Positions 1 through 13,470 of a DNA stretch of 24,199 bases are shown here, piece after piece. The translations under genes and the position numbers were made by a program. The stretch lies in IMG/VR virus record IMGVR_UViG_3300006793_000278, positions 1 through 24,199 of that record. The stretch is one strand, 5' to 3'. The notes beneath the pieces are model-generated. The model worked only from the letters and a program-made list of their open reading frames with translations, was not told where the DNA came from and made no database searches. This stretch comes from a virus. Position 1 is the first letter of the stretch; the number at the start of each line of letters is the position of its first letter.

Positions 1-47
1 ACATCCTGTTGCCACGGAAGAAGTTCGACGTTGAGTTCTGTACTCAA
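1..47 (-). CDS. Probable start of large terminase subunit (partial)
   Basis: An open frame runs off the left edge of the window. It begins at a TTG (47-45) that overlaps the lysozyme stop codon, preceded by an in-frame TAA (53-51) and by a purine-rich AAAGAGG at 61-55 that could serve as ribosome binding site. The visible residues read MSTELNVELLPWQQD. The ELLPWQ segment resembles the adenine-contacting Q motif near the N-terminus of many phage large terminases, the ATPase-nuclease motor that packages DNA. A terminase is expected next to the small-terminase-like gene at 489-863. Only about 15 codons are visible, so the call rests on context and a short motif. Any other downstream late gene remains possible. 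Confidence 0.4.
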   Translation of the reverse strand, partial: MSTELNVELLPWQQD

Positions 48-502
48 GCCTTAGCCTCTTTCATAATGTCAACAAGCTCTTTGCTACGGCGACCTACCTG
101 AGTGTACCACTTGGAGTCAATCATCTCATTGGCGGCCATTAGGTAGTTACCTTCGTTCACGTACTTGAGCATATTCTTAAACTGACCTAAACGATTACGT
201 CCAAGATTAAATGCCATATTCACAAGAACCCTTTGGGCGTCTGGGGCTTGTCCTGCAAAGTTTAAGACAAGAGTGCAGGCATCACTGTAGGCAATACCGC
301 AGTCTTTGTGAAAGACATCCAAGATCCTCTCATCAGTCACAGGGGTTCCTACGGGCCATGAGTGCTCCATATCGTCCTCTGTGACCATGTGGCCGATACC
401 GAATGTAGGGTACCCTTCAGAACACAAATAGATCTCTGTGACGTAGCCTTCGTGACGAACGAGATCCTCTTTGACAATTTCAATGAGTTCATCTTTCGTC
501 AT
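44..502 (-). CDS. T4-type lysozyme (GH24 endolysin)
   Basis: This 152-residue protein fits the GH24 muramidase family, which cuts the glycan chain of peptidoglycan to release progeny. The catalytic signature is E18 (RHEGY), C27 (YLCSEG) and T33 (PTFGIGH), with spacing E-8-C-5-T. T4 lysozyme has Asp at the middle position; Cys there is a known family variant. The downstream part has the helical lysozyme pattern (VLVNMAFNLG, LGQFKNML, SKWYTQVGRRS). There is no N-terminal hydrophobic stretch, so it is not a signal-anchor endolysin and should need a holin. It starts 14 bases inside the preceding gene, with GAGGTGAT just upstream of its ATG, indicating translational coupling. It belongs to the leftward late operon. 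Confidence 0.93.
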   Translation of the reverse strand: MTKDELIEIVKEDLVRHEGYVTEIYLCSEGYPTFGIGHMVTEDDMEHSWPVGTPVTDERILDVFHKDCGIAYSDACTLVLNFAGQAPDAQRVLVNMAFNLGRNRLGQFKNMLKYVNEGNYLMAANEMIDSKWYTQVGRRSKELVDIMKEAKA

Positions 503-863
503 CTATCACCTCAGCATCAATAATATCATTTTCAGTTACCTTTGCCTCACCAATACCACTAATGGTTATGGAGACTGAAGGACGACTACCACCTTCTTTG
601 TCTTTTTCAAAGTAGCTAATCGGTAGCATACGATCCATAAGTAACTTCCAAGCCGCCGCTTGGTTCTTATGGTCATCGTTCAGTGCCGCATCAAGAATAC
701 TGTCGAGTACCTTACGGGACTTAGGTGAGGCCAACATACGAGCTTTATACTCATTGATGATTGCGGCGTCGCCCGGAGGTCGACCAACTTTACCTCTATT
801 GGTCAACTTTTTAGATTCGACATCCTGTTTTTTAGGACGACCAATCTTTTTAGTTTCTGTCAT
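489..863 (-). CDS. Small terminase-like DNA-binding protein with two AT-hook motifs
   Basis: The 124-residue protein opens with two AT-hook-like cores, KIGRPKK (residues 6-12) and KVGRPPG (25-31), separated by a basic linker. A helical middle follows (SPKSRKVLDSILDAALNDDHKNQAAAWKL and on to about residue 85), then a beta-like SVSITISGI stretch and an acidic C-terminus (IIDAEVIDDER). AT-hooks bind the minor groove of AT-rich DNA. I read it as a small terminase subunit from its size, its place directly before the lysozyme and probable TerL, and its general similarity to small terminases of marine phages as I remember them. It is the first leftward gene after the control region and has an AAGGAA ribosome site. 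A late-gene regulator is an alternative, since its promoter is packed with palindromes. Confidence 0.55.
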   Translation of the reverse strand: MTETKKIGRPKKQDVESKKLTNRGKVGRPPGDAAIINEYKARMLASPKSRKVLDSILDAALNDDHKNQAAAWKLLMDRMLPISYFEKDKEGGSRPSVSITISGIGEAKVTENDIIDAEVIDDER

Positions 864-876
864 AAGTATTTTCCTT

Positions 877-1005
877 ACTTAAGGGTACTTAAGTGATACT
901 TTAAGAGTAATTAATAATAAACACTTAACGATTTACTTAAGTGTCTTAAGTATATTCCATAATTATACCATAAAACTAACCAAAAGTCAATAGGTATACT
1001 TAAGT
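877..1005. repeat. Cluster of ACTTAAGT palindromes (operator- or iteron-like)
   Basis: Five CTTAAG cores lie in 127 bases, at 878-883, 888-893, 936-941, 945-950 and 999-1004. Three are the full palindrome ACTTAAGT (887-894, 935-942, 998-1005) and the other two match it at seven of eight bases. Degenerate copies sit at 899-905 and 923-928. Two pairs are spaced 9-10 bases, about one helical turn. One site is just upstream of the -35 of the leftward promoter, one pair lies around the likely transcription start, and one pair lies in the leader next to the ribosome site. This is the usual geometry of a repressor or activator array. Confidence 0.7.
962..990 (-). promoter_or_regulatory. Leftward sigma70 promoter with extended -10
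   Basis: On the minus strand the -35 is TTGACT (990-985), the spacer is 17 bases, and the -10 is TATAAT (967-962) preceded by TGG. Transcription should start near 955 and give a leader of about 90 bases before the small-terminase-like gene. It shares the extended string TATG(G/C)TATAATT(A/G)TG(G/C)A with the promoter at 23856-23884. CTTAAG palindromes flank it on both sides. Confidence 0.85.
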
Positions 1006-1023
1006 TTCCCTAAGGTGCCCCAA

Positions 1024-1041
1024 GTTGACCCTTTTGTCAAC
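1024..1041. promoter_or_regulatory. Inverted repeat GTTGAC/GTCAAC
   Basis: A perfect 6-base stem (1024-1029 with 1036-1041) surrounds a 6-base loop CCTTTT. The T-runs at 1055-1060 and 1066-1071 are too far away for a classic intrinsic terminator. It may be a protein site or simply part of the structured control region. Confidence 0.35.
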
Positions 1042-1638: not shown

Positions 1639-1929
1639 ATGACTGACCGCATCAAGACAAGAATCACTGAAGACCGCCTAGACGTTGTCGGCCTATACGA
1701 TCACGTCAACGGGTACACATATGTGTATGAGCTTGAGATCGACCGTGACGGTGGTGACACTCGTCTGACTTCGGTCTCTCTCTGGAACAGCCCAGAAGTG
1801 CCCGTGACCAAGCGGGAGATTCTTAAGACCCTCGCACACGCTGTCGAGCATATGCGTTCTGCGTGGATTGAGGACGGCACGATCTACGGCACTGAGGCCG
1901 CAGACTGGACTTATAAGATTTCTTACTAA
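1639..1929 (+). CDS. Early protein of unknown function
   Basis: A 96-residue protein that I do not recognise. It begins with ATG after AGAGGAAA and is the first gene of the rightward arm. It is mixed charged and beta-rich in its first half (RLDVVGLYDHVNGYTYVYELEIDRD), followed by a likely helix (TKREILKTLAHAVEHMRSAW) and an aromatic C-terminus. There is no signal peptide, membrane segment or cysteine motif. A small soluble protein encoded first after the control region fits the usual place of phage proteins made immediately after infection, many of which act on host transcription or defence. That role is inferred from position only. Confidence 0.8.
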   Translation: MTDRIKTRITEDRLDVVGLYDHVNGYTYVYELEIDRDGGDTRLTSVSLWNSPEVPVTKREILKTLAHAVEHMRSAWIEDGTIYGTEAADWTYKISY

Positions 1930-1940
1930 GGAGAATTACT

Positions 1941-2201
1941 ATGACTACTTGGACAACTTTCGAGACTATCGCAGAGACAGCACAGCGCAGTGAGTTTGTA
2001 GTGCGTTCATTCTATGTCGACCGCCTTGGCGTTCATCAGTACCACGAGGACGACCGTGTGCGCTTTGATTTCGCAACGGCTGACGGTCAGAAGTGGTCGG
2101 TCGTTGACCGTGAGGCTGAGGACGACCAGACCGGCTCGTGTCACGGTACGATGCGTGACTGTGTATCTTGGGTCGCAGGTCGAGTGCTCTACGGAGCTTG
2201 A
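1941..2201 (+). CDS. Early protein of unknown function
   Basis: An 86-residue acidic protein that I do not recognise. AAGGAG (1928-1933) precedes its ATG, and it starts 11 bases after the previous gene, so the two should be cotranscribed. The sequence alternates charged and aromatic residues (FVVRSFYVDRLGVHQYHEDDRVRFDF), suggesting a small beta-rich fold, and it has two cysteines (GSCHGTMRDC) too few for a classic zinc site on their own. It contains no hydrophobic segment. A hairpin follows it at 2232-2250. Confidence 0.78.
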   Translation: MTTWTTFETIAETAQRSEFVVRSFYVDRLGVHQYHEDDRVRFDFATADGQKWSVVDREAEDDQTGSCHGTMRDCVSWVAGRVLYGA

Positions 2202-2231
2202 TTGCGTAGCAGTCTATTGACAATATCAACG

Positions 2232-2250
2232 GGGCGATGTAATGTCGCCC
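2232..2250 (+). promoter_or_regulatory. RNA hairpin GGGCGA/TCGCCC before the 2276 gene
   Basis: A perfect 6-base GC-rich stem (2232-2237 with 2245-2250) with a 7-base loop lies in the gap before the next early gene. The sequence ACACACAGGAGA and the start codon follow. No long T-run follows, so it is more likely an mRNA processing, stability or translation element than a terminator. Confidence 0.5.
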
Positions 2251-2275
2251 TTACTGAACACACAGGAGAGAACAC

Positions 2276-2509
2276 ATGAACACGATCCACACAGCACACT
2301 GCAAGCGCAAGGGCGTTTACTCTGTTTACGCTTATGCGATGCCTGAGGGTTACGACTTGCGGGTAGGTTACACAGTGCGGAGCAGTGACAGTCTCGAGGA
2401 GGCTACACAGGAGGCGTTGTACGATATCACAGGGCGCAACGCACACGAGTATACAGTGGTTGACCACGGGAAAAAGTCAGCCATATATTGTGAACACTAC
2501 AGGTTTTAA
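2276..2509 (+). CDS. Early protein of unknown function
   Basis: A 77-residue protein that I do not recognise. CACAGGAGAG supplies a strong ribosome site. The order looks like beta (KGVYSVYAYAMPEGYDLRVGYTVRS), then a helix (DSLEEATQEALYDITG), then beta (EYTVVDHGKKSAIY), giving a compact soluble fold. Cysteines 9 and 72 are isolated. It follows a hairpin and lies in a run of small early genes, so a host-interaction role is a guess from context. Confidence 0.78.
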   Translation: MNTIHTAHCKRKGVYSVYAYAMPEGYDLRVGYTVRSSDSLEEATQEALYDITGRNAHEYTVVDHGKKSAIYCEHYRF

Positions 2510-2523
2510 ACAGGAGAACGACT

Positions 2524-2673
2524 ATGACGCACTATCGTATATACCTAGGCACTCGCAACCCTGAGCTACTCTGGGAGGGCTACGGTCAGGAGAAACTACG
2601 CAAGGCTCTCTGGAAAGCCCGTAATCAGTTCGCAGACAGCACTAAGGAGGTATGGTATTACCCTAAATACTAA
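2524..2673 (+). CDS. Small early protein of unknown function (49 residues)
   Basis: A short gene read from ATG at 2524, preceded by CAGGAG (2512-2517) and starting 14 bases after the previous stop. The product begins MTHYRIYLGTRNPELLWEG and ends KEVWYYPKY. It is basic, rich in Trp and Tyr, with a likely amphipathic helix in the middle (QEKLRKALWKARNQFA). I do not recognise it. Tight spacing, a good ribosome site and the same strand as its neighbours support a real gene. Confidence 0.65.
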   Translation: MTHYRIYLGTRNPELLWEGYGQEKLRKALWKARNQFADSTKEVWYYPKY

Positions 2674-2687
2674 TCGCCCACTGATGA

Positions 2688-2730
2688 GCCTGAGTTGCGT
2701 CAGGCGAAACGACCGGTCTATACTGGTCGT
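2688..2730 (+). promoter_or_regulatory. Two tandem RNA hairpins before the 2762 gene
   Basis: The first hairpin is GCCTGA (2688-2693) with TCAGGC (2700-2705) around a 6-base loop. The second is a 9-base stem ACGACCGGT (2709-2717) with ACTGGTCGT (2722-2730) around CTAT, with one G-U pair. An alternative longer pairing, TCGCC (2674-2678) with GGCGA (2703-2707), competes with the first. ACACACAGGAGA and a start codon follow, as after the hairpin at 2232-2250. Confidence 0.55.
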
Positions 2731-2761
2731 CTGGGTAGCTAACACACAGGAGAAAACTACC

Positions 2762-3064
2762 ATGAGAAAGATTGAGAAAGAAATGAACTACGCAATCGCA
2801 CAAGGTCGCAACTGGTCCTCAGCTAACACGATGGTGCGTGTTGAGCCAGAGACACGCAAGCGCAAGGTCTACCTGCACGGCAACCACATTGCCACGGTCG
2901 ACGTTTACACGAGCGGGTGGGGTTGGTCTGGCGATGTCGAGGTCAACACCTACACGCTCAGCAACTGGCCGACTAACACCACTAAGTCACGCCTGAGAGC
3001 ACTTGGGGTTGACGTGTACACACGGAACCACACTACATACGTTGACGGAGTGCCAGTCGTATGA
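2762..3064 (+). CDS. Early protein of unknown function (100 residues)
   Basis: I chose ATG 2762 (MRKIEKEMNYAIAQG) because ACAGGAGAA lies just upstream. An earlier in-frame ATG at 2684 would be translated through the tandem hairpins and lacks a comparable site. The protein is basic, with a helical N-terminus, then a beta-rich core (TMVRVEPETRKRKVYLHGNHIATVDVYTS) and a Trp/Thr-rich stretch. I do not recognise it. Its stop overlaps the next start (ATGA), which points to translational coupling. Confidence 0.75.
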   Translation: MRKIEKEMNYAIAQGRNWSSANTMVRVEPETRKRKVYLHGNHIATVDVYTSGWGWSGDVEVNTYTLSNWPTNTTKSRLRALGVDVYTRNHTTYVDGVPVV

Positions 3065-3477
3065 AAACACTACAGACAGAGAATTTCGAGGTCGGCATTC
3101 ACGACGACCTCAAGCACGGTTGGTTTGAGCATAATCAACTAGGCGATGTGTGCATTGCAACGCTTGTTGTGGACTACCCGTACTCAAGCGGATTACACTG
3201 CACAGCCACAGGAGGCACAATGAGAAGATACGACCAGACGGCCCCGGATGTCGTCTACTTCAACCCCAAGACCGACGGTGAGCAACTCATCAAGAGTAAA
3301 CACACCTTGGTCACTTGGGATGGTGTCGGGCAGTTCAAAGCGTTCTACGCCGATGACTACCGATTCTTTGACCAGTTCACGATTCCATGCGTGACCACTG
3401 ACCAAGCGCAAGAGATTGCGGAGGAATACGCCGCAGAGTTCGACCTAGCGTGTGATGAGGAGACAGACGATGACTGA
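3061..3477 (+). CDS. Early protein of unknown function (138 residues)
   Basis: The product starts MKTLQTENFEVGIHDDLKHG and ends in the acidic tail CDEETDDD. It is rich in aromatic and acidic residues, with a central HCTATGGTMRRYDQTAPDVVYF segment and a C-terminal helix (TTDQAQEIAEEYAAEFDLA). I do not recognise it. A strongly acidic small early protein could mimic DNA or bind a basic host protein, but nothing here proves that. It is coupled by overlap to the genes on both sides. Confidence 0.77.
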   Translation: MKTLQTENFEVGIHDDLKHGWFEHNQLGDVCIATLVVDYPYSSGLHCTATGGTMRRYDQTAPDVVYFNPKTDGEQLIKSKHTLVTWDGVGQFKAFYADDYRFFDQFTIPCVTTDQAQEIAEEYAAEFDLACDEETDDD

Positions 3478-3706
3478 CCATGAACAACAATACGACCCAC
3501 AGCTTCAGTGGGTCATTGAGGAGGTGATCTTTGCGATCACTCAACAGAAGCAGACAGACACGACTTGGTTTGACGTTTATGAGACGATCACCGGGTCAAC
3601 AGCAGACGAGGCTTGGGATGAATACCAAGCGCAACAGCGAGCAGAAGCAGAGGGCGAAGCCCGCTATGAACAGGAGCAATACGATGCAGAGCGACTTTAT
3701 GACTGA
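3470..3706 (+). CDS. Acidic, Gln-rich early protein of unknown function
   Basis: I chose ATG 3470 (MTDHEQQYDPQLQWVIEE) over an earlier in-frame start at 3452, because GAGGAG at 3457-3462 is correctly placed for it and the 8-base overlap with the preceding stop is typical here. The 78-residue product is very acidic and rich in Gln and Tyr. It looks largely helical, with a possible coiled coil near the C-terminus (DEYQAQQRAEAEGEARYEQEQYDAE). I do not recognise it. Confidence 0.68.
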   Translation: MTDHEQQYDPQLQWVIEEVIFAITQQKQTDTTWFDVYETITGSTADEAWDEYQAQQRAEAEGEARYEQEQYDAERLYD

Positions 3707-3836
3707 CCTTGAGGTCGATATTTACTTAGGTTGTGTCAATTTGGCACGGGACATTAACGAGGAGATTATGAACATCGACGAGATGTTGGATATCTCCTTG
3801 TTTGATATTTGGTTGGAGTATGTAGGCAATGATTAA
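3684..3836 (+). CDS. Small acidic early protein of unknown function
   Basis: The likely start is ATG 3684 (MQSDFMTDLEVDIYLG), since AGGAG at 3672-3676 is 7 bases upstream; ATG 3699 is an alternative. The 50-residue product is acidic and hydrophobic, probably two helices (VDIYLGCVNLARDINEEIMNI, ISLFDIWLEYVGND). The frame continues further upstream, but that part is out-of-frame sequence of the preceding gene and has unlike composition. I do not recognise it. Its stop overlaps the next start by 8 bases. Confidence 0.6.
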   Translation: MQSDFMTDLEVDIYLGCVNLARDINEEIMNIDEMLDISLFDIWLEYVGND

Positions 3837-4068
3837 GCGAATCCATGTGAATCAGCACAATATCCGTGCTAACAGCAAGGGTGAGGACTTACCGGTCTTC
3901 ACTGTCAAGACGTACAAAGAGAACCTCAAGGGTGAACGTGTCGTCATCAAGGGCGACTCTGAACTGGTCTACAGCCCCGACAAGCCGCTTGACTGTGGTG
4001 CGAAGGTCTGGATTGAGACGACAGCGGACGTTGACGTACACTTTGGCGACTGGAAGGTCACAAGATGA
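3829..4068 (+). CDS. Conserved small marine-phage-type protein, function unknown
   Basis: This 79-residue protein begins MIKRIHVNQHNIRANSKG and has the core FTVKTYKENLKGERVVIKG, then LVYSPDKPLDCGAKVWIET. From memory this pattern recurs in small hypothetical proteins of cyanophages and other marine phages. I cannot check that here, and I know of no proven function. It is probably a small beta-barrel. It overlaps the preceding gene by 8 bases and the following one by 4 (ATGA), so it is translated within a coupled chain. Confidence 0.8.
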   Translation: MIKRIHVNQHNIRANSKGEDLPVFTVKTYKENLKGERVVIKGDSELVYSPDKPLDCGAKVWIETTADVDVHFGDWKVTR

Positions 4069-4286
4069 ACAAAGTCCCTCACGTTGAGCGTGACTTGCTC
4101 ACAGGTGGTCTTACGACTGCCTGTGCGGCTCTTTGGTGTAAATTTCTCTCTGAGGAGTTCGACTGGCAGGGTAATAGGTCGCTATCAGAATATTACAAAC
4201 GTCGCTCAGAGGAGCTCTCTGTAGCTCCTACGGGTGCTTTACACGACAGACGGCTAGAGGAGGCCATCAAAGCATGGAAACGCTAA
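4065..4286 (+). CDS. Early protein of unknown function (73 residues)
   Basis: The product starts MNKVPHVERDLLTGGLTTA. It looks mainly helical, with a Cys/Trp segment (TTACAALWCKFLSEEFDW) and a basic C-terminal helix (LHDRRLEEAIKAWKR). I do not recognise it. The start overlaps the previous stop as ATGA, and the small membrane gene at 4274 begins inside its 3' end. Confidence 0.7.
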   Translation: MNKVPHVERDLLTGGLTTACAALWCKFLSEEFDWQGNRSLSEYYKRRSEELSVAPTGALHDRRLEEAIKAWKR

Positions 4287-4387
4287 CTTTTAACGACTGG
4301 GCGTTGCTCATAATTGGTACAGGAGCCGTTGCGGCCATCTTTGGTGGTCTCATTGGGTGGGTTATCTTTGGTAACGAAAATGATTGA
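4274..4387 (+). CDS. Small single-span membrane protein (37 residues)
   Basis: Read from ATG 4274, the product starts METLTFNDWALLIIGTG and carries one long hydrophobic segment (about residues 10-33, including AVAAIFGGLIGWVIFG) with small-xxx-small glycine spacing, then a short polar tail (NEND). It should insert in the inner membrane. Its place among early genes argues against a classical late holin, although no other holin is seen in the window. Small phage membrane peptides can also block superinfection. It overlaps the upstream gene by 13 bases. Confidence 0.6.
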   Translation: METLTFNDWALLIIGTGAVAAIFGGLIGWVIFGNEND

Positions 4388-4439
4388 GGTGATGAAAATC
4401 GTTGTGGTTTTGATTGCCATTTGGAAATGTTTTAATTGA
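4380..4439 (+). CDS. Possible 19-residue hydrophobic peptide
   Basis: An ATG overlapping the previous stop opens a tiny frame, MIEVMKIVVVLIAIWKCFN. It has a hydrophobic core and a positive C-terminus, like a small membrane peptide. Only the coupling overlap and the context next to another membrane protein support translation; it may be chance. Confidence 0.25.
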   Translation: MIEVMKIVVVLIAIWKCFN

Positions 4440-4450
4440 GGTGAACAGCT

Positions 4451-4642
4451 ATGCGTTGCAAGGCTTGTAATGATGAATTGACAGACTATGAATCAACTTG
4501 GAAAGACTACGAAACCGGAGAGTTTTACGACCTCTGTGGTCAGTGTTGGTCTATTTCCCGCAGTGCTGAACTTGAAGCAGAGAATAATTTATGCTACAAT
4601 AGTGGTTTAGTCGTTATGAACAACAACGAGGAGGACTCCTAG
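4451..4642 (+). CDS. Small zinc-ribbon protein
   Basis: The 63-residue product has two CxxC knuckles, C3-C6 (RCKACND) and C29-C32 (DLCGQCW), about 22 residues apart. This is the usual four-cysteine zinc-ribbon pattern. The segment between them (DYESTWKDYETGEFYD) is acidic and aromatic. Such small zinc proteins are common in phages and often bind nucleic acid or host proteins, but this one has no assigned role. GAGGTGA precedes the ATG. A promoter for the replication genes lies inside its 3' half, at 4572-4600. Confidence 0.78.
   Translation: MRCKACNDELTDYESTWKDYETGEFYDLCGQCWSISRSAELEAENNLCYNSGLVVMNNNEEDS
4572..4600 (+). promoter_or_regulatory. Rightward sigma70 promoter for replication genes
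   Basis: TTGAAG (4572-4577), a 17-base spacer and TACAAT (4595-4600) preceded by TGC form an extended -10 promoter inside the zinc-ribbon gene. The bases after the -10 read AGTGGTTTA, as in the promoter at 8550-8578 and nearly as in the one at 11107-11135. It would drive the 4663 gene, the ssDNA-binding protein, primase-helicase and polymerase. Confidence 0.7.
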
Positions 4643-4648
4643 GAGTCC
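4633..4648 (+). promoter_or_regulatory. 16-base perfect palindrome GGACTCCTAGGAGTCC
   Basis: The palindrome covers the stop of the zinc-ribbon gene and lies just downstream of the 4572-4600 promoter, near the 5' end of that transcript. It ends three bases before the AGGAGG of the next gene. As DNA it could be an operator. As RNA its AGGAG half could also compete with that ribosome site. Confidence 0.5.
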
Positions 4649-4662
4649 CTTAGGAGGTCGTT

Positions 4663-4851
4663 ATGTTATTACCTAATATATCAACCAGTATATTACTTAT
4701 GGAATTACGGAACAGGCTGTCTGATCGTCTTGACGACCCTGAGCCGCAATATGACGTAGTGTTGTCGAATACACCACTGCGTGACTTAAGAGAGCTTGAG
4801 ACCGCTTTGGAATCAATCTCACTCTACACACCAGAACCTGAGGAGGTCTGA
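4663..4851 (+). CDS. Small protein of unknown function before ssb
   Basis: The 62-residue protein starts MLLPNISTSILLMELRNRLSD, with AGGAGG (4652-4657) perfectly spaced before its ATG. It is acidic and helical (LRNRLSDRLDDPE, LRDLRELETALESISLY). I do not recognise it. It is the first gene after the 4572-4600 promoter and ends three bases before the ssDNA-binding protein, so it may belong to the replication unit. Confidence 0.68.
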   Translation: MLLPNISTSILLMELRNRLSDRLDDPEPQYDVVLSNTPLRDLRELETALESISLYTPEPEEV

Positions 4852-4853
4852 TA

Positions 4854-5234
4854 ATGTCAGTAATCAACGGCACCGTCGCATTTGCGAACCTTAACGAGCA
4901 TGAGGTCTACAACGGCCAATCCACAGGCAAGTATTCACTTGTCTTAGTCCTTGATGACGCTGAAGCTGAGAAGCTTGAGCAGGAAGGCATCAAGATTAAA
5001 ATGTACAAGAACCAAGCACAACGTAAGTTCGCTACGAAGTTTGAGGACTTCCCTGTCATCGACAACGACGGTGAACCCGTCAGTAAGTCTTCAGTGCGCT
5101 ACGGTGACAAGGTGCGTATCAAGTACAACCTTGGCAACCCTCACCCTGTACACGGTGTCGCACCGTACCTACAGGCTGTCCGTGTGGTTGAGAAAGGGGA
5201 GGTAGCGGTTGGTGATGACGACGGAGAATTCTGA
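4854..5234 (+). CDS. Single-stranded DNA-binding protein (T7 gp2.5-like)
   Basis: The 126-residue product fits a short gp2.5-type OB-fold protein that coats single-stranded DNA and coordinates replication proteins. Features are the N-terminal strand pattern (VINGTVAFANLNEHEVYNG, KYSLVLVLDDAEAEKL), the KMYKNQAQRKFATKF segment, a late strand (YGDKVRIKYNLGN), and the acidic C-terminus GDDDGEF ending in phenylalanine. In T7 gp2.5 an acidic tail with a terminal Phe contacts the DNA polymerase. T7 gp2.5 is much longer (about 230 residues), so this is a reduced version. The primase-helicase begins inside its last codons. Confidence 0.85.
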   Translation: MSVINGTVAFANLNEHEVYNGQSTGKYSLVLVLDDAEAEKLEQEGIKIKMYKNQAQRKFATKFEDFPVIDNDGEPVSKSSVRYGDKVRIKYNLGNPHPVHGVAPYLQAVRVVEKGEVAVGDDDGEF

Positions 5235-6813
5235 GTTCGTCGGTCACGCTGAGTGCGAGAAGTGCGGGAGCAGTGATGCTCTCGCTACTTACTCAGACGG
5301 ACATGGGTATTGTTTCTCATGCCATACACATTTCAAGGAGGTCGACGGAGTGGAAGCCACTAACGTTGTCACATACACAAAACCAGTGGAGATGTACGGA
5401 TCGCCACGGGCACTTACGGATCGACGGATCGCATTAGATACTGTGAAGAAGTACGGTGTAACGTGTGACGATACCAAGCAATACTATCCGTACTATGACA
5501 AAGACGGGAAGCTCGTAGGCTCCAAGGTTCGCACAGTCGCAACCAAGGAGTTCAGCACTCGTGGAGATATGCGTACAAACGTCCTGTTCGGTCAGCAGTT
5601 ATTCAATACTGGTGGTCGCTACGTCACAGTCGTCGAGGGAGAGCTTGACGCTCTGGCCGCTTACGAGATGCTAGGGTCACGTTACCCTGTCGTCTCTATC
5701 ACCAAGGGTGCAGGCGGAGCAGTCAAGGACTTCAAGCAGAACCTAGAGTGGCTTGAGGGCTTTGAGAATGTCGTTATTTGTTTCGACAGCGACGTGGCAG
5801 GGCGTGAGGCCGCAGAGAAATGTGCACAAATACTCAGCCCTAACAAGGCCAAGGTCGTGAACCTGACTGACTACAAGGATGCTTCTGACTATCTCAAAGA
5901 GAACAAGGTCAGAGCATTCACGGCTCAGTGGTGGGAGGCAAAGTCCTACAGAATGACAGGCATCATCACCCTTGAAGATGCATGGTCTGACTTTATCAAG
6001 CGAGGAACAGAGGAGATCATTCCTTTCCCTGAATCGTTTGGTATGCTCAACTCTATGCTCAACGGTGGGATAGCCGCAGGTGAAATCACGGTCGTCGGTG
6101 CGCTGACCTCAGTTGGTAAGACGACAATGGTTAATGAGATCACTTACCACTTCTGGAAGAACACCAGTAAGACGATTGGTTGTGCCTTCCTTGAGGCATC
6201 CAACGGTGAGGCTGTCGAGAACCTCTTGACGATCCACACAGGCCACAATCTGTCACTGGAGGATCGTAAGAACATCGACTTTGACAGGCTCCATACGGAC
6301 ATCATCACGGATGGTCGTGTACTGCTCTTGGATCACAGCGGTGCTGTTGATACAGATGAGTTGTTCCTGAAGCTCCGTGCGATGGTCAAGGGTAACGGTT
6401 GTGATGTGCTTATCATTGACCCGCTACAGGCGGCAGTGACGAGCAACAGCAACGAGACCATTGACGACTTTATGGATCGCCTACTCAAGCTCGCCAAGGA
6501 GACCGATGTGTCGGTCATTGTTGTCAGCCATATGCGTAAGCCTAGTCTGACGAATCCACATAATGTGAATGAGTATGATCTTAAGGGCTCTGGTTCAATC
6601 AACCAGATTGCTTTTAACACGATCCTGCTCAGTCGTGACAAGATGGCTGAAGATGAGTACGCACGGAACAGCACTCAGGTGCAGGTCGTGAAGTGTCGTC
6701 GCACAGGTATAACAGGCTCTGCCGGTTGGCTGTACTACAACAGTTTGACAGGCCGCCTTGAGCGTGGCGAGAAGCCAGAAGTACACGAGGCAAACAACAT
6801 AGAGGAGTTCTAA
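5215..6813 (+). CDS. Bifunctional DNA primase-helicase (T7 gp4-like)
   Basis: A 532-residue replicative enzyme that makes RNA primers and unwinds DNA as a ring. From ATG 5215, the zinc finger has C14, C17, C33 and C36. A TOPRIM primase fold follows (VVEGELDAL about 139-147; CFDSDVAGR about 189-197). The RecA-type helicase has Walker A GALTSVGKT (295-303), Walker B LIIDP with D402, H439 in VVSHM, and an arginine-finger region KCRRTG (493-498). Length is close to T7 gp4 (566). The C-terminus NNIEEF is acidic with a final Phe, like T7 gp4. TTG 5209 and GTG 5212 are alternative starts for the GGGGAGG at 5196-5202. It overlaps ssb by 20 bases. Confidence 0.97.
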   Translation: MTTENSEFVGHAECEKCGSSDALATYSDGHGYCFSCHTHFKEVDGVEATNVVTYTKPVEMYGSPRALTDRRIALDTVKKYGVTCDDTKQYYPYYDKDGKLVGSKVRTVATKEFSTRGDMRTNVLFGQQLFNTGGRYVTVVEGELDALAAYEMLGSRYPVVSITKGAGGAVKDFKQNLEWLEGFENVVICFDSDVAGREAAEKCAQILSPNKAKVVNLTDYKDASDYLKENKVRAFTAQWWEAKSYRMTGIITLEDAWSDFIKRGTEEIIPFPESFGMLNSMLNGGIAAGEITVVGALTSVGKTTMVNEITYHFWKNTSKTIGCAFLEASNGEAVENLLTIHTGHNLSLEDRKNIDFDRLHTDIITDGRVLLLDHSGAVDTDELFLKLRAMVKGNGCDVLIIDPLQAAVTSNSNETIDDFMDRLLKLAKETDVSVIVVSHMRKPSLTNPHNVNEYDLKGSGSINQIAFNTILLSRDKMAEDEYARNSTQVQVVKCRRTGITGSAGWLYYNSLTGRLERGEKPEVHEANNIEEF

Positions 6814-6840
6814 TATGTCATCACGTCGAGGACGTATGTA

Positions 6841-8553
6841 ATGCGTTGTATTTGGGATATTGAAACAGACGGCCTCAAGCCCACAGTCATATGGTGCTTG
6901 TGTGCCATTAAAGATGACAAGATGTACACACTTGAGATGCCGACTAAAGAGATGGTTGAGGAGTTGTTCGCTGACGTAACTGAACACGTCGGGCACAATC
7001 TCATTAACTATGATATCCCTGTGGTCGAAAAGCTGTTAGATGTGTCGATAAACGGTCAAATAATAGACACGTTAGTCATGTCACGTTTATACAACCCACA
7101 GCTTGAAGGTGGTCACTCACTAGATGCTTGGGGACAACGCCTAAAGTTTCCTAAAGGAGATTATCATGATTGGTCTGCGCTTACGCCAGAAATGGTGGTT
7201 TACTGTCAGCAGGATGTTAGGGTTACTGAACGAGTTCTTGAGGTACTCCTCAAAGAGCTTAGTGAGTTTGGAAGTGACAGCATTACTCTTGAGCACGACG
7301 TACAGTGTGCAGTTAGTAAGCAAATCCAAAACGGTTGGTTACTCGACGAAAGAAAAGCCACAGACTTAGTTGCACAGTTACAGGAGAAGCAGAATGAAAT
7401 TGAAGAACAAGTGCACAAAGCGTTTACGCCTTTACCTACGTTCGTTAAAGAGATCGTACCCAAGTTCAAGAAAGATGGAGACCTATCAACAGTTGGCCTT
7501 AAGTTCTTGGGGGACAAGTGGACGACAGTAGGTGGGCCGTTCAGTCGCATTGACTGGCCTGAGTTCAACCTAGGATCACGACAGCAAATCGGGAGGTATC
7601 TTCGGCTCTTTGGTTGGAAGCCAGAGAAGTTTACGGAGACTGGTCAAGCTATTGTTGACGAGAAGACACTGGAGACTGTTACTGATATACCTGAAGCTCA
7701 ACTTATTGCGGAGTATCTCATGGTTGGTAAGAGGATCGCACAAGTCCAATCGTGGCTTGACGCAATCGAGGATGACGGTCGAGTGCATGGACAGGTCAAC
7801 GCCTGTGGTGCAGTCACAGGACGAATGACGCACAGTAAACCTAACATGGCCCAAGTGCCCGCTGTAGGAGCCCCATACGGGACAGAGTGTCGTGCCTGTT
7901 GGGTTGTGCCTACTGGTTACAAGTTAGTCGGGGTCGATGCTTCTGGGTTGGAACTCAGGATGTTAGCCTCATACATGAATGACAAGGAGTATACAGATGA
8001 AATCCTTAACGGAGACATTCATACAACAAATCAGCGAAATGCAGGATTGTCTACACGAGCTCAGGCAAAGACATTTATATACGCCTTCTTATACGGAGCA
8101 GGAGACGCTAAAATCGGCTCTATTGTGGATGGCAGTCAGAGGACTGGAGCGAGACTTAGACAACGCTTTCTCGACAATACTCCCGCACTTGCAGAGCTTA
8201 GAGAAAAAGTCTCAATCGCCTCTCACAGAGGACACCTCAGGGGCTTGGACGGACGATGCTTACACATCAGAAGTGAACATAGTGCCTTAAACACTTTGCT
8301 TCAGTCAGCCGGTGCTATCGTTATGAAGAAAGCACTACAGATCTTTGAGCAGTATGCTCCTCAATGGAAGCTAGACTATAAGCTCCTTGGGTCTATCCAC
8401 GATGAGTACCAGATCGAGGCTAGAGAAGATCAGGCAGACAAGGTGGGCTACTTGATGGTCGAGTCTATTAAGGCGGCAGGGATTGCCTTAGACCTCAAGT
8501 GCCCTCTTGATGGTGAATACAAGGTTGGTAACAATTGGGCTGAAACACATTGA
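6841..8553 (+). CDS. Family A DNA polymerase with 3'-5' exonuclease (T7 gp5-like)
   Basis: The 570-residue replicative polymerase has a complete proofreading domain: Exo I D6/E8 (WDIETDG), Exo II around D58 (GHNLINYD), Exo III Y121/D125 (YCQQD). The polymerase has motif A with D366 (GVDASGLELR), motif B R406-K410-Y414 (RAQAKTFIYAFLYGAGDAKIG, nearly identical to T7) and motif C HDE at 520-522. Tyr414 corresponds to position 762 of E. coli Pol I, where Tyr or Phe is typical of virulent phages. It is about 130 residues shorter than T7 gp5 and probably lacks the thioredoxin-binding loop. It starts 27 bases after the primase-helicase. Confidence 0.97.
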   Translation: MRCIWDIETDGLKPTVIWCLCAIKDDKMYTLEMPTKEMVEELFADVTEHVGHNLINYDIPVVEKLLDVSINGQIIDTLVMSRLYNPQLEGGHSLDAWGQRLKFPKGDYHDWSALTPEMVVYCQQDVRVTERVLEVLLKELSEFGSDSITLEHDVQCAVSKQIQNGWLLDERKATDLVAQLQEKQNEIEEQVHKAFTPLPTFVKEIVPKFKKDGDLSTVGLKFLGDKWTTVGGPFSRIDWPEFNLGSRQQIGRYLRLFGWKPEKFTETGQAIVDEKTLETVTDIPEAQLIAEYLMVGKRIAQVQSWLDAIEDDGRVHGQVNACGAVTGRMTHSKPNMAQVPAVGAPYGTECRACWVVPTGYKLVGVDASGLELRMLASYMNDKEYTDEILNGDIHTTNQRNAGLSTRAQAKTFIYAFLYGAGDAKIGSIVDGSQRTGARLRQRFLDNTPALAELREKVSIASHRGHLRGLDGRCLHIRSEHSALNTLLQSAGAIVMKKALQIFEQYAPQWKLDYKLLGSIHDEYQIEAREDQADKVGYLMVESIKAAGIALDLKCPLDGEYKVGNNWAETH

Positions 8554-8578
8554 TGACCACAACATATTGTGGTATAAT
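8550..8578 (+). promoter_or_regulatory. Rightward sigma70 promoter with palindromic spacer
   Basis: TTGATG (8550-8555), a 17-base spacer and TATAAT (8573-8578) preceded by TGG, followed by AGTGGTTTA. The spacer region holds the inverted repeat ACCACAA-CATA-TTGTGGT (8556-8573), a stem of seven bases that lies between the -35 and -10 and reaches the first base of the -10. A repressor bound there would block RNA polymerase. The promoter overlaps the polymerase stop codon and feeds the nuclease genes. Confidence 0.82.
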
Positions 8579-8604
8579 AGTGGTTTACACATTAGGAGAT
8601 ACAA

Positions 8605-8808
8605 ATGGCGAACATTTACAGCGTACAAGACTTTGAGGAGCGCCTCTCAGAGTTGACTGTCGGAACTGAGGAAGTACAACGTCTTATGGATTTTGTACAA
8701 AGGCGTGAACGTACAATCAATGGCCTCATTCGTAAAATCGGCATAGCTGAGACTATCATTGGCGAGTACGAGCTAGATAGACGATTGATGGAGGGTGAGC
8801 ATGAGTAA
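8605..8808 (+). CDS. Small helical protein of unknown function
   Basis: The 67-residue product starts MANIYSVQDFEERLSELTVG, with AGGAG (8592-8596) before the ATG. It is almost entirely charged helix (EVQRLMDFVQRRERTINGLIRKIGIAETIIGEYELDRRLMEGEHE) and could dimerise as a coiled coil. I do not recognise it. It is the first gene of the nuclease unit and overlaps the nuclease by 8 bases, so it may be its partner, but that is inference from coupling alone. Confidence 0.72.
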   Translation: MANIYSVQDFEERLSELTVGTEEVQRLMDFVQRRERTINGLIRKIGIAETIIGEYELDRRLMEGEHE

Positions 8809-9679
8809 GTCAATCTACACGCTCGTAGACGACATCTACGCACTGATGGAGAACCGCAACACACCTAAGGAGGTGGATGTGGATGCGGAGATTGAACGCT
8901 TTGGTGAGGCCATGAAAGACCTCATGAAGAAAGAGTTTAAGCCACAGGGTATGCGTGATGCTCGTAGGCTCCGGTTGTCTGCCATTGGTAAGAATGACCG
9001 TCAGCTTTGGTACTCAGCCAACAAGTACACTCAGGAGAAACTCAAGCCGCATACATACATTAAGTTTATGTACGGCCATATGATTGAGGAACTGGTTCTG
9101 TTCTTGACTCGTATGGCAGGACACACAGTGGAAGACCAACAGAAGCTATGTGAGGTTGAGGGTGTCAAGGGCTCTATGGACGCTCGTGTTGATGGTCGTT
9201 TGATTGACGTTAAGTCAACCTCAAGCTACGGTTATAAGAAGTTCAAGGACGCTACGCTTGCGTATGACGATCCCTTTGGCTACGTTGCTCAGTTGAAAGC
9301 CTACGCACACTCTGAGGGCGACACCAAGTACGGTTGGATTGCCATTGACAAGCAGAATGGTCACCTGTGTTACCTTGAGTATGATGAGACTGACACACAG
9401 GCTCCTGTGTACTCTGCGATCAACTACGACATTGCAGAGCGAGTCCGCCACGTAAAAAAGGTGGTGGAGCTTCCAGAACCTCCGTCCTTCTGTCACGAGC
9501 CCGTGGACGATGGGAAATCTGGAAACAAAAAGCTCGCTACGGGTTGCTCGTACTGCGGTTACAAGCTCCACTGTTACCCCACCTTAAGAGGATTTATTTA
9601 TTCTACTGGTGTAAGGTTTTTAACAGAGGTTGCGAATGAGCCTAAGGTTCCTGAGTTGCAGTTGAAGGAGGTATCATGA
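8801..9679 (+). CDS. PD-(D/E)XK exonuclease, RecB/Cas4-like
   Basis: A 292-residue nuclease read from ATG 8801, which has GGAGG at 8790-8794. RecB-type motifs are E97 (GHMIEEL), D127 (GSMDARVDG), D136-x-K138 (LIDVKST) and Q164 (YVAQLKAY). A C-terminal cysteine set, C231, C249, C252 and C258 (CSYCGYKLHC), resembles the Fe-S site of Cas4 and AddB nucleases, although the usual early cysteine near motif I is replaced (SAIGKNDRQLWY). It sits where T7 carries gene 6 exonuclease, so it probably degrades host DNA or processes replication ends, together with endonuclease I two genes on. Confidence 0.88.
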   Translation: MSKSIYTLVDDIYALMENRNTPKEVDVDAEIERFGEAMKDLMKKEFKPQGMRDARRLRLSAIGKNDRQLWYSANKYTQEKLKPHTYIKFMYGHMIEELVLFLTRMAGHTVEDQQKLCEVEGVKGSMDARVDGRLIDVKSTSSYGYKKFKDATLAYDDPFGYVAQLKAYAHSEGDTKYGWIAIDKQNGHLCYLEYDETDTQAPVYSAINYDIAERVRHVKKVVELPEPPSFCHEPVDDGKSGNKKLATGCSYCGYKLHCYPTLRGFIYSTGVRFLTEVANEPKVPELQLKEVS

Positions 9680-10167
9680 CTGACATAAATCCAAAAACAG
9701 GTAAAGAGTTCTATTACAAAGACAACCCAGAGGCTGTCAAAAAGCGTGATGCTAATCGTATGTATGTAAATGGTAAAGAGGTGTCGAAAAAACACCCACT
9801 TCATAAGCCCGGACGATATCATATGCTAGACGATGCTTGGTCACATTGTGATATTGATGCGAAAAGCACTGAAGGAGAAGTTTACATTGTCCGTAATAGT
9901 GCATGGCCTGAATGGCAGAAAGTTGGCAAGGCAGTAGACGCACAAGATCGTCTGAAGGGTTACCAGACTGGATCACCTAAACGTAACTACGAATTAGTAC
10001 ATGCAGAATGGTTCGCAGACCGTCATGAGGCAGAAAAAGCCATACATAAGATGCTTGAGCAACACAAGAGTTGCCATGAGCGTCGAAAAGAATGGTTTAA
10101 GTCCTACGACTCCGTAATTAAGGAGGTTATGCGTGAGTACAAAGAAGCGCAAGGGCAAGCCTCCTAA
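9676..10167 (+). CDS. GIY-YIG (T5orf172-type) nuclease-domain protein
   Basis: The 163-residue product has a charged N-terminal part (about 1-60) and a GIY-YIG-like C-terminal domain: GEVYIV (67-72), KVGKA (82-86), catalytic-type R92 in DRLKGYQTGSP, HEAEKAIHKML (about 117-127) and KEWF (138-141). T5orf172-type domains are a GIY-YIG subgroup often found in phages. The gene is coupled upstream by ATGA and downstream by a 35-base overlap, and it has no intron or split neighbour, so it looks like a settled operon member rather than a recent homing insertion. Its substrate is unknown; a role in DNA breakdown or junction processing is possible. Confidence 0.83.
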   Translation: MTDINPKTGKEFYYKDNPEAVKKRDANRMYVNGKEVSKKHPLHKPGRYHMLDDAWSHCDIDAKSTEGEVYIVRNSAWPEWQKVGKAVDAQDRLKGYQTGSPKRNYELVHAEWFADRHEAEKAIHKMLEQHKSCHERRKEWFKSYDSVIKEVMREYKEAQGQAS

Positions 10168-10540
10168 GGGCTATGATAGTTGGTTTGAGTATGAGTTGCA
10201 CATAGGGGTGCTCAAGGACTGTGAGTACCATACGGATTCAGTTGCGTACACACAGGAGAAAATGTATGAGCCTGACTTCCGCATCGGGGACTACCTGATC
10301 GAGGCCAAGGGTCGCTTCAGGGACTCTGAGGAAGCACGTAAGTATGTAGACATACGAAAGAGTTTAACATTTGAAGAATTGGTGTTTGTGTTTTATCACC
10401 CAGACACCCCAATGCCAAGAGCAAGGAGACGAAATGATGGGACTAAGTTCACAATGTCTGAATGGGCTGACAAAAATGGTTTTCGGTACTACACGGTCGA
10501 AACCATTACTACGCTACTTAAGGAAGCGAAAGTATGCTAA
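10133..10540 (+). CDS. Endonuclease I, Holliday-junction resolvase (T7 gp3-like)
   Basis: The 135-residue enzyme matches T7 endonuclease I, which cuts branched DNA and helps break down the host chromosome. The active-site pattern is E19 (SWFEYEL), D48 (MYEPDFRI), and E57-x-K59 (LIEAKGRF), equivalent to E20, D55, E65 and K67 of T7. The start is GTG 10133, placed 6 bases after a perfect AGGAGG (10121-10126). The N-terminus is strongly basic (STKKRKGKPPKG). It overlaps the GIY-YIG gene by 35 bases, and the next small gene starts inside its last codons. Confidence 0.95.
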   Translation: MSTKKRKGKPPKGYDSWFEYELHIGVLKDCEYHTDSVAYTQEKMYEPDFRIGDYLIEAKGRFRDSEEARKYVDIRKSLTFEELVFVFYHPDTPMPRARRRNDGTKFTMSEWADKNGFRYYTVETITTLLKEAKVC

Positions 10541-10695
10541 CACTTACCGACGTGTGTGATCGTTTGAAACAACAGGATGAGATAAGTGTCCTAGAGGTTC
10601 TTGAGATTACGTCTCAAGACCTCGTAGATCGCTTTCAGGACAAGATTGAAGATAAGTTAGATTACTTTATAGAGGATTTAGAAGATGAGTCGTAG
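10534..10695 (+). CDS. Small acidic protein of unknown function (53 residues)
   Basis: Read from ATG 10534, which overlaps the endonuclease stop, with AAGGAAG (10520-10526) upstream. The product starts MLTLTDVCDRLKQQDEISVL and ends IEDLEDES. The first part looks like a short helix-turn-helix-sized unit (LTDVCDRLKQQDEISVLEVLEITSQDLVDRF) and the rest is acidic helix. I do not recognise it. Its stop overlaps the next start. Confidence 0.7.
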   Translation: MLTLTDVCDRLKQQDEISVLEVLEITSQDLVDRFQDKIEDKLDYFIEDLEDES

Positions 10696-10909
10696 ATTTG
10701 ATAGTGTCTTTGAAGATGAAGACGATAAAGCATATATGGTCTTTGAGTTTCGTAACTGTGGTAAGTCCGTTAGGTTAGACAACAAGTATGACTATGATGT
10801 GACTTGGGATGAAATCTTACAGGATGTCGTACAGTGCCTTGAGGGTTCTTATGGCTACTCATTTAACCTAGATGATTTGAGCATCTACAAGAGGAAGACC
10901 GATGAGTGA
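10685..10909 (+). CDS. Small acidic protein of unknown function (74 residues)
   Basis: The product starts MSRRFDSVFEDEDDKAYMVFEF. It has acidic and aromatic stretches and a central helix (TWDEILQDVVQCLEGSYG). I do not recognise it. It overlaps genes on both sides (11 and 8 bases), so it belongs to the coupled chain between endonuclease I and the DUF3310 gene. Confidence 0.75.
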   Translation: MSRRFDSVFEDEDDKAYMVFEFRNCGKSVRLDNKYDYDVTWDEILQDVVQCLEGSYGYSFNLDDLSIYKRKTDE

Positions 10910-11132
10910 CCTTACTGAAATGGCACGAGAATATCAGTTAGGTGGTAGCCACTACACAGACAAACAGATACAGCCTTGGGACGCTATGGAATGTTGGATG
11001 TCAGAAGAACAATTCCGTGGATTTATTTTAGGTAATGTTATTAAGTACATAGCAAGGTTTCAAGAGAAAGGTGGTAAGTTAGACCTGCAAAAGGCCAAAC
11101 ACTATCTGGACAAATTGATTGAAATCTGGTAA
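10902..11132 (+). CDS. DUF3310 protein
   Basis: The 76-residue protein carries the DUF3310 signature: GGSHYTD (14-20), IQPWDAME (23-30), FILGNVIKYIARF (41-53) and a C-terminal helix KAKHYLDKLIEIW. This small family is widespread in phages near replication genes. Some databases call it nucleotide-kinase-like, but the biochemical role is not established. It closes the nuclease unit, and the promoter for the RNR genes overlaps its stop codon. Confidence 0.9.
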   Translation: MSDLTEMAREYQLGGSHYTDKQIQPWDAMECWMSEEQFRGFILGNVIKYIARFQEKGGKLDLQKAKHYLDKLIEIW

Positions 11133-11135
11133 AAT
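11107..11135 (+). promoter_or_regulatory. Rightward sigma70 promoter for the RNR unit
   Basis: TGGACA (11107-11112), a 17-base spacer and TAAAAT (11130-11135) preceded by TGG, followed by AGTGGGTT. It overlaps the end of the DUF3310 gene and gives a leader of about 75 bases before nrdA. It matches the 4572 and 8550 promoters in layout. Confidence 0.75.
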
Positions 11136-11215
11136 AGTGGGTTCGCCTTTGTGGTTTATCGACATCGTTGATATCGTTGCAAGGGCACCACACAAGAAGA
11201 ACATTGGAGAAGTGA

Positions 11216-12973
11216 ATGACAAACTACCTTGGGATAACGATTGACTATGAAAGAGATAATCGCCTCAGCGACCAAGCAGTTACACTCATGCGTGACTACT
11301 ATATGCTCAGCAGTGAACAATCGCCCCAAGAGGCTTTTGCTCGTGCTAGTGTGGCCTATTGTGGCGGTGATCTTGATTTTGCACAAAGGATATATGACTA
11401 TGCTAGCAAAGGTTGGTTCATGTTTGCGAGCCCTGTGCTCAGCAATGCCCCAGAACCGAATGGAAAGATTAGTGGGTTGCCTATTAGTTGTTTCCTTACT
11501 TACGTGGGGGACAATCTTGATAGCCTTATTGAACATAATGGTGAAGTAGCATGGCTTTCCGTAAAGGGCGGCGGTGTGGGTGGGCACTGGTCAGACGTGA
11601 GAGGGATCAGCGACAAAGCCCCCGGCCCGATCCCGTTCATGAAAGTAGTGGACGCACAGATGACAGCGTACAAACAAGGAAAGACAAGAAAGGGTAGCTA
11701 TGCGGCGTACCTAGACGTAAGCCATCCTGACATCGAGGAGTTCATTTCATTTAAAGTACCGACTGGTGGTGACATCAATCGTAAATGTTTTAATTTGTTT
11801 AACGCAGTCAATGTGACTGATGAATTTATGGAGAGTGTAATCAATGATACAGAGTGGAACCTTACAGACCCAAGTACAGGAATTGTTAGAGAGACAGTCA
11901 AAGCTCGTAGACTGTGGCAACGAATCCTTGAAGCTCGCTTCAGAACTGGCAGTCCTTACCTTAACTTTATCGACACAGCCAAAAGAGGCTTACCAGAAGC
12001 TCAAAGAAAACTTGGATTGTCAATTAACGGCTCTAACCTCTGCAACGAAATCCATCTCGCAACAAGTGAAGACCGTACAGCAGTCTGTTGCCTCTCCTCA
12101 GTCAACCTTGAGCTCTATGACGAGTGGAAAACAAGCGGAATGGTTGGAGACCTTATCCGACTCTTGGACAACGTGCTTCAATTCTTTATTGACCACGCAC
12201 CAGAAGAACTTGGAAAAGCTGTATTCTCAGCATACAGAGAACGTAGCATCGGTCTTGGAGCAATGGGGTTCCACGGCTACCTCCAGTCCAAAGGCATAGC
12301 TTGGGAGTCATGGCAAGCGGCGAGTGAGAACTATGGAATCTTCAAAGACATCAAGTCCCAAGCTGTCGAGGCAACCTACTCGCTCGCTGTGGAACGTGGC
12401 GAGTGTCCTGATGGAGTGGGTACTGGTGTTAGAAATATGCATCTGTTGGCTATTGCTCCTAACGCTAATAGTAGCATCCTTTGCGGGTGCTCTGCTAGCA
12501 TTGAACCACGCATTAGCAACTGCTATGTGCATCGTACTCGTGCCGGGTCTCATACTGTTCGTAATCCATACTTGGAGAAGTTATTAGATGAGAAGGGGCA
12601 AAATACAAAGAAGGTGTGGCAGAGCATACTTGAGAACGAAGGCTCTGTTCAGCACTTGGAGTTCTTATCCGATGACGAGAGGGATACTTTTAAGACAGCG
12701 TTTGAACTTGACCAAACATGGGTTGTGGAACATTCGGCAAAGCGACAGGAGTTTATATGTCAAGGCCAGAGTGTCAACGTCTTCTTCCCTTCGGGTACGG
12801 ATAAAGCTATTGTTAATCAGGTACATCTCAAGGCATGGAAGGAAGGGCTTAAAGGACTATACTATCTCAGAACGACTGCGGGTGTTACAGCAGAGAAGGT
12901 TGGAACTAAGGTAGATCGTAATGCCCTGAAGGATTTTGAGGATGAAGAGGTGTGTGTCTCATGTCAGGGCTAA
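11216..12973 (+). CDS. nrdA: Class I ribonucleotide reductase, large subunit
   Basis: The 585-residue catalytic subunit reduces ribonucleotides to deoxyribonucleotides. All key residues are present: C92 (ISCFL), the N274-C276-E278 triad (SNLCNEI), the partner cysteine at 291-292 (AVCCLSS), the radical-path pair Y549-Y550 (GLYYLRT) and the C-terminal shuttle pair C580/C583 (VCVSCQG). The protein starts directly at the fold preceding the barrel. At 585 residues, against about 760 in E. coli, it lacks the N-terminal ATP-cone, so it should not be shut down by dATP through that site. ATG 11216 follows GGAGAAG. The gene starts a unit that also holds nrdB. Confidence 0.97.
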   Translation: MTNYLGITIDYERDNRLSDQAVTLMRDYYMLSSEQSPQEAFARASVAYCGGDLDFAQRIYDYASKGWFMFASPVLSNAPEPNGKISGLPISCFLTYVGDNLDSLIEHNGEVAWLSVKGGGVGGHWSDVRGISDKAPGPIPFMKVVDAQMTAYKQGKTRKGSYAAYLDVSHPDIEEFISFKVPTGGDINRKCFNLFNAVNVTDEFMESVINDTEWNLTDPSTGIVRETVKARRLWQRILEARFRTGSPYLNFIDTAKRGLPEAQRKLGLSINGSNLCNEIHLATSEDRTAVCCLSSVNLELYDEWKTSGMVGDLIRLLDNVLQFFIDHAPEELGKAVFSAYRERSIGLGAMGFHGYLQSKGIAWESWQAASENYGIFKDIKSQAVEATYSLAVERGECPDGVGTGVRNMHLLAIAPNANSSILCGCSASIEPRISNCYVHRTRAGSHTVRNPYLEKLLDEKGQNTKKVWQSILENEGSVQHLEFLSDDERDTFKTAFELDQTWVVEHSAKRQEFICQGQSVNVFFPSGTDKAIVNQVHLKAWKEGLKGLYYLRTTAGVTAEKVGTKVDRNALKDFEDEEVCVSCQG

Positions 12974-13350
12974 ATGGATATCAGCTAATACAACGCATGA
13001 GTGAAGTTGAGTTGCTACAGGGCTTTGACGGCCCTGTCACTCACGATCAAATCCCCAAACTAGAAGAGGCAATTGAAGAAGAGAGTAAGAAGTCTAAAGC
13101 CTGTGAAGAACGTAATTATGATAAAATGCAGTACAGTAATCCTCATGCCAAAGAGATTAAACGTCTGCGTACCATCATTGCTTTTGTCAAAGCAGGTGCC
13201 AGTGTAGAACGTACTGGTGGCGGTTTTATTACCGTTAATGGTAAGTACATTATCTCTTTAGCCAATCCACGATGGAGGGTCAAAGGAAAGAACAAATGGT
13301 ACTGGTATACTACACCAGAGCAATTTATGGATAAATACGTCAACAGATAA
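12961..13350 (+). CDS. Protein of unknown function between nrdA and nrdB
   Basis: From ATG 12961 (GAAGAGG upstream, 13-base overlap with nrdA) the product has 129 residues. The first half is a charged helix (TKLEEAIEEESKKS-type region, about 40-60, and KEIKRLRTIIAFVKAG). The second half is a basic, aromatic beta region (GGGFITVNGKYIISL, WRVKGKNKWYWYTTPEQF). The Trp/Lys-rich C-terminal part could bind nucleic acid. I do not recognise it. Sitting inside the RNR unit suggests a nucleotide-metabolism or host-takeover role, but this is not proven. Confidence 0.75.
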   Translation: MSGLNGYQLIQRMSEVELLQGFDGPVTHDQIPKLEEAIEEESKKSKACEERNYDKMQYSNPHAKEIKRLRTIIAFVKAGASVERTGGGFITVNGKYIISLANPRWRVKGKNKWYWYTTPEQFMDKYVNR

Positions 13351-13356
13351 CATAGT

Positions 13357-13444
13357 ATCCATATATGTTGCTTTTGGGTGTAAATGGACACTATATAGAC
13401 CAAAGTCTACACATATGTTTCTTTTATGGATCATTCGTGTAGAC
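13357..13444 (+). promoter_or_regulatory. Structured gap with competing hairpins between nrdA and nrdB
   Basis: The only sizeable gap in the RNR unit holds several nested repeats. GTCTACAC (13405-13412) can pair with GTGTAGAC (13437-13444), or its first five bases can pair with TAGAC (13396-13400) around CAAA; the two pairings exclude each other. ATCCATA (13357-13363) pairs with TATGGAT (13425-13431). A direct repeat of ATGTT-CTTTT type recurs exactly 50 bases apart (13361-13375 and 13411-13425, 13 of 15 bases equal). No T-run follows. It may be an RNA switch, a processing site or a binding array. Confidence 0.55.
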
Positions 13445-13470
13445 CTATCCGCAGATAAATGGGAGAGAAT

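Follow-up and report, generated by a model that had tools for sequence, protein, structure and literature searches.

MetJ met boxes measure 8 bp and follow one another in strict 8-bp tandem, short palindromes lying side by side at a promoter. Hairpins are also known from the leaders of phage late mRNAs, e.g., T4 gene e, and from the RNase III stem of the lambda N leader. Among alphaproteobacterial phages, vB_BsubS-Delta and PhiCbK-like phages carry CtrA-binding arrays in a divergent gap beside the terminase genes (PMC9437464). The locus analyzed here, a cluster of CTTAAG hexamers in a marine phage, likewise occupies a gap between divergent genes beside the terminase genes, as expected of a host-regulator array of the CtrA type. 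However, CtrA sites are TTAA-N7-TTAA dyads 11 bp apart, whereas the pairs here are CTTAAG-N4-CTTAAG, 10 bp apart (a TTAA spacing of N6). No TTAA-N7-TTAA dyad occurs in the window, and the modal TTAA spacing in near lineages is 10 (25 pairs, versus four pairs at 11). CtrA was therefore rejected as the binder because its spacing is wrong. Like met boxes, the cluster consists of short palindromes repeated at a promoter, but its copies lie at distances of 9–11 bp, most often 10, and an RHH-type protein was not found. Like the T4 gene e and lambda N leaders, it includes a structured leader directly upstream of a ribosome site, but its conserved part is a hexamer that also occurs outside the transcript, and its fold signal is not sense-specific.

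The window, i.e. the whole stretch of DNA analyzed, is a record of 24,199 bp. Early and replication genes run rightward (1639–15112) and structural genes leftward, re-entering at the left edge of the window with a small-terminase-like (TerS-like) gene assigned by synteny (489–863, minus strand) and a phage lysozyme gene (44–502, minus strand), the second gene of the late operon. The TerS-like protein has two GRP (AT-hook-like) motifs, and the Shine-Dalgarno sequence of its gene is AAGGA (872–876, minus strand). In relatives, the order of the late operon is TerS, lysozyme, TerL (Terminase_6N/6C) and portal (synteny read on locus L010, from which the placement of TerL is taken, as the window stops short of it). 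Because this leftward operon goes on to TerL and portal, the 775-bp divergent gap (864–1638) contains the late operon start. The TerS-like protein matched no known TerS family in PHROGs or Pfam, and its structural model (pLDDT 56) has a helical core only. The marine group has many metagenomic relatives, yet neither TerS nor the intergenic region found a match in the collection of named phages searched (50,697 records). The closest DNA polymerases are those of pelagiphages HTVC103P/104P/115P (46–50%), and the few TerS relatives within genomes come from Flavobacteriales and gammaproteobacterial MAGs (40–62% identity). One early protein (2762–3064) matches Pfam Kyanoviridae Gp96 (PF23790, E=7e-21), a family named for cyanophages.

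The promoter nearest the TerS-like gene, P2, is an extended −10 sigma-70 promoter on the minus strand (990–962), with 11 of 12 consensus matches in TTGACT-17-TATAAT and a TG ahead of the −10. Its −35 hexamer (TTGACT, 985–990) is kept in relatives, and its extended −10 (TGG TATAAT, 962–967) predicts a start site near 955. The earlier note took it for the late promoter of the small-terminase-like gene; the synteny of TerS, lysozyme, TerL and portal supports this assignment, and most relatives found have a P2-type promoter ahead of TerS. A tandem promoter, P1, likely exists upstream as well: its −35 (TTGACA, 1035–1040, minus strand) is invariant in an alignment of close relatives, and its −10 position (1012–1017, minus strand), a weak CACCTT in the window, reads TACAAT in L030 and TATAAT in L251. 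A second perfect P2-type promoter (23884–23856, minus strand) lies directly before a tail gene (23828–23184). Its leader contains no CTTAAG, which argues that the hexamers are not a general feature of promoters or ribosome sites. Other late genes share this promoter type in L084, L085, L090, L132 and similar loci, with a short hairpin immediately after it (e.g., AUAGUAUACAUUAAGUAUAUUAU); in L084 and L085, folding of this hairpin is better on the sense strand.

Five CTTAAG hexamers lie within 127 bp around P2, at 878, 888, 936, 945 and 999, three of them as the full palindrome ACTTAAGT (at 887, 935 and 998), exactly as first described; ACTTAAGT is absent from the rest of the record. The sites flank the −35, the predicted start site and the leader. 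O1 (999–1004, within ACTTAAGT at 998–1005) is ~9 bp above the P2 −35 and 7 bp past the presumed P1 −10. O2a (945–950) covers ~+5 to +10 of P2, and three copies lie deeper in the leader: O2b (936–941, within ACTTAAGT at 935–942), O3a at the end of the leader (888–893, within ACTTAAGT at 887–894) and O3b (878–883), immediately upstream of the Shine-Dalgarno sequence. The near-helical-turn spacing reported inside two pairs is 10 bp for 878/888 and 9 bp for 936/945. CTTAAG occurs 17 times in the window, compared with 7.0 ± 2.5 in dinucleotide shuffles (none of 100 shuffles reached 17); the other 24 kb hold 12 copies, or ~0.5 per kb against ~39 per kb in the array, so the hexamer is not equally dense elsewhere. 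A second CTTAAG cluster ~1.25 kb downstream was rejected as regulatory because it is coding (TerL, VSLKFLVMDEYAD).

We compared the leader with those of related phages. The first 80 loci came from a protein search with TerS alone as the query, and wider pattern scans led to 86 distinct TerS leaders, some of whose lineages were fetched by patterns containing TTAAG or TCGTTWAG. Conservation in related phages is evident among the 36 nearest loci (L004–L039), which hold 2–6 CTTAAG in the 300 bp upstream. In 26 related lineages, which are akin to each other so that counts are non-independent, the leaders contain 64 CTTAAG versus 2.2 in shuffles, and the zone just above the −35 contains 22 versus 0.9 expected; 21 of the 26 have a CTTAAG in the O1 zone. 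Twelve further copies (~1.1 expected) lie upstream of P1, at −200 to −85 and hence outside the P1 and P2 transcripts. Copies recur at −43 or −53, 8–11, 20–21, 66–70, 76–80, 87–90 and 99 relative to the −10. The distance between neighboring copies is 10 bp for 16 of 20 pairs, and for all 12 pairs of other TerS lineages. L108, with a different TerS type, and L105/L142, L176 and L193, with more distant TerS, each have four copies forming two pairs exactly 10 bp apart. L036 and L045 have no copy above the −35; there, CTTAAG is found instead within the −35/−10 spacer. Helical phasing across the whole array was rejected: spacings between lineages appear phased, yet TTAA within individual leaders shows no 10.5-bp period, and we restrict the claim of phasing to neighboring copies 9–11 bp apart. 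The remaining loci, whose TerS is ~66–77% identical, mostly have zero or one CTTAAG, with P2 and the TerS core nearly unchanged. At the same place, L125 and L169 carry a different repeat (many CTTTAAAG/GTTAAAG) and a very long stem in the leader.

We take the hexamers to be DNA sites first and a stem in the leader to be a second layer; the two readings are compatible. As DNA, the five CTTAAG are candidate operators, to which a regulator of the late promoter, encoded by phage or host, would bind sequence-specifically; we hold this sequence-based proposal at about even confidence. Such a regulator would gate P2 and probably the tandem P1. With its near-perfect sigma-70 consensus, P2 should fire on infection unless restrained, and a protein on O1 (above the −35), O2a/O2b (the first transcribed bases) and O3a/O3b (the leader) could block initiation or early elongation. 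We infer binding, repression over activation and the identity of any binder; by analogy, a host protein is possible. The concentration of sites at the late promoter, the extra copies upstream of both transcripts and the absence of O1–O2 covariation once CTTAAG is masked (p=0.46) all favor operators. So do the preferred 10-bp spacing of neighboring copies, the CTTAAG within the −35/−10 spacer of L036 and L045, the uncompensated O3 hexamer and the CTTAAG-free leader of the second P2-type promoter. Against operators, distant relatives lack the sites though P2 and TerS are kept, longer-range phasing is weak, and the flanking arms of the leader covary, which an operator does not need. No DNA-binding regulator family, RNA polymerase or transcription factor was recognised in the 24-kb window, which has many early proteins of unknown family. 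Of the several early genes present in close relatives only, none resembles a DNA-binding protein, and a co-occurring early gene was rejected as the regulator. The locus thus raises the question of how phages without a recognised regulator hold back a consensus sigma-70 late promoter, and a defined, conserved, 10-bp-paired site at that promoter is bait for finding the regulator.

The sites may act as RNA instead, which we consider possible but doubtful. The CUUAAG copies that open and close the leader would then be the self-complementary arms of a long imperfect hairpin (887–942, minus strand; arms 921–942 and 887–908, 77% complementary), whose role would be to make the late mRNA more stable or to leave the ribosome site accessible. 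At the start of a P1 transcript, this role would fall to the copy at 999, and the position of O1 behind the P1 −10 indeed resembles that of O2 behind the P2 −10. The leader stem is probably real, because its flanking arms covary with the hexamers masked: a lineage's own pairing beats arms swapped between lineages (p=0.001 with all C/ATTAAG masked). A two-sided change converts AUGAG/CUCAU to ACGAG/CUCGU, and in distant relatives the arms differ in sequence but are complementary (e.g., AAGAAACGC.../...GCGTTTCTT in L044). The hexamers do not share this behavior: O3 reads CTTAAG throughout the lineages compared, including those with ATTAAG at O2, so that compensation is lacking, and O1 has no covarying partner. 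Copies upstream of both transcripts likewise speak against an RNA role. The folding signal is strand-symmetric, the sense strand being no more structured than the antisense (z of −1.35 and −1.65, respectively, in 64 leaders), the mRNA 5′ end is not generally paired, and Rfam gave no plausible match. The openness of the window's Shine-Dalgarno sequence exceeds that in shuffles (0.66 versus 0.32), in keeping with a hairpin that frees the ribosome site; sequestration of this sequence by the array was rejected, as its accessibility in the window's clade is raised rather than lowered. In L049, L046 and L086, which have short leaders, pairing is possible between the 5′ end of the mRNA and the Shine-Dalgarno sequence (GUAUUCUUAG...CUAAGGUAAAUAC). 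The earlier note suggested the AT-hook protein encoded at 489–863 as a possible regulator of its own promoter, and we find it very unlikely that this TerS-like protein binds the array, as an autorepressor or because the array is a packaging site. The array is immediately upstream of its gene and the protein has the two GRP motifs, but neither these motifs nor the protein core show any change among clades, whether these have the sites or lack them, and the AT_hook match falls below the Pfam cut-off. That distant relatives lose the cluster while the TerS core and P2 stay nearly unchanged also makes TerS unlikely to act on its own promoter, and contig ends, judged by eye, show no visible pile-up at the site, which also speaks against TerS as the binder. 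The interpretation in the earlier note is partly supported: conservation and density were borne out and the AT-hook regulator was not.

Replication offers a further explanation for the array. Most close relatives have 2–7 exact DnaA boxes (TTATCCACA) in the divergent gap, 260–480 bp above P2 and nearly all in one orientation. Clusters occur in L237, L092, L217, L010, L253, L242, L065, L082, L169 and others, and the podophages with such clusters encode a T7-like primase-helicase and polymerase. All loci together contain 227 exact boxes in 1.9 Mb, versus ~14 expected by simple base counting. A perfect parS (TGTTTCACGTGAAACA), often with CTTAAG directly before it, lies in the DnaA-box region (L010:2546, L092:3265, L217:5844, L237:1155, L242:4134, L250:2220 and L268:3136), and in the viral contig collection an exact parS is present in at least 120 stretches. 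These boxes and parS sites suggest that the gap is a replication origin imitating the host oriC; host-type elements in this same region would link late transcription with replication control. The window's intergenic region contains no parS and no DnaA box, even allowing one mismatch, and SIO1, HTVC103P (first 50 kb) and CRP-403 contain no exact box. That the array itself belongs to an origin, as initiator sites or as an AT-rich tract for unwinding next to the late promoter, seems to us quite unlikely. GC content is 23% at 901–1000 and the sign of the GC skew flips there, but a skew change is also expected from divergent transcription. CTTAAG is centered on P2 and the leader and is not linked to the boxes: in the window CTTAAG occurs without boxes, and L065 and L082 have boxes without CTTAAG. 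DnaA boxes therefore fail to explain the array, and the origin iteron set once suggested gains only indirect support from the relatives' boxes in the same intergenic region, but CTTAAG does not track them. We also regard as unlikely that the divergent region of this podophage group with a T7-like replisome is a module reading host cell-cycle and replication proteins, in which the relatives' DnaA boxes and parS would mimic the host oriC and the CTTAAG pairs would be sites of a further host regulator timing late genes with the host replication state. Where relatives carry DnaA boxes, the window's subgroup lacks them and has 30-bp tandem repeats (CTAATGTTTAGCCTRCGAA..., 1230–1319 in the window); similar repeats are also seen in L129, L116, L230 and L178.
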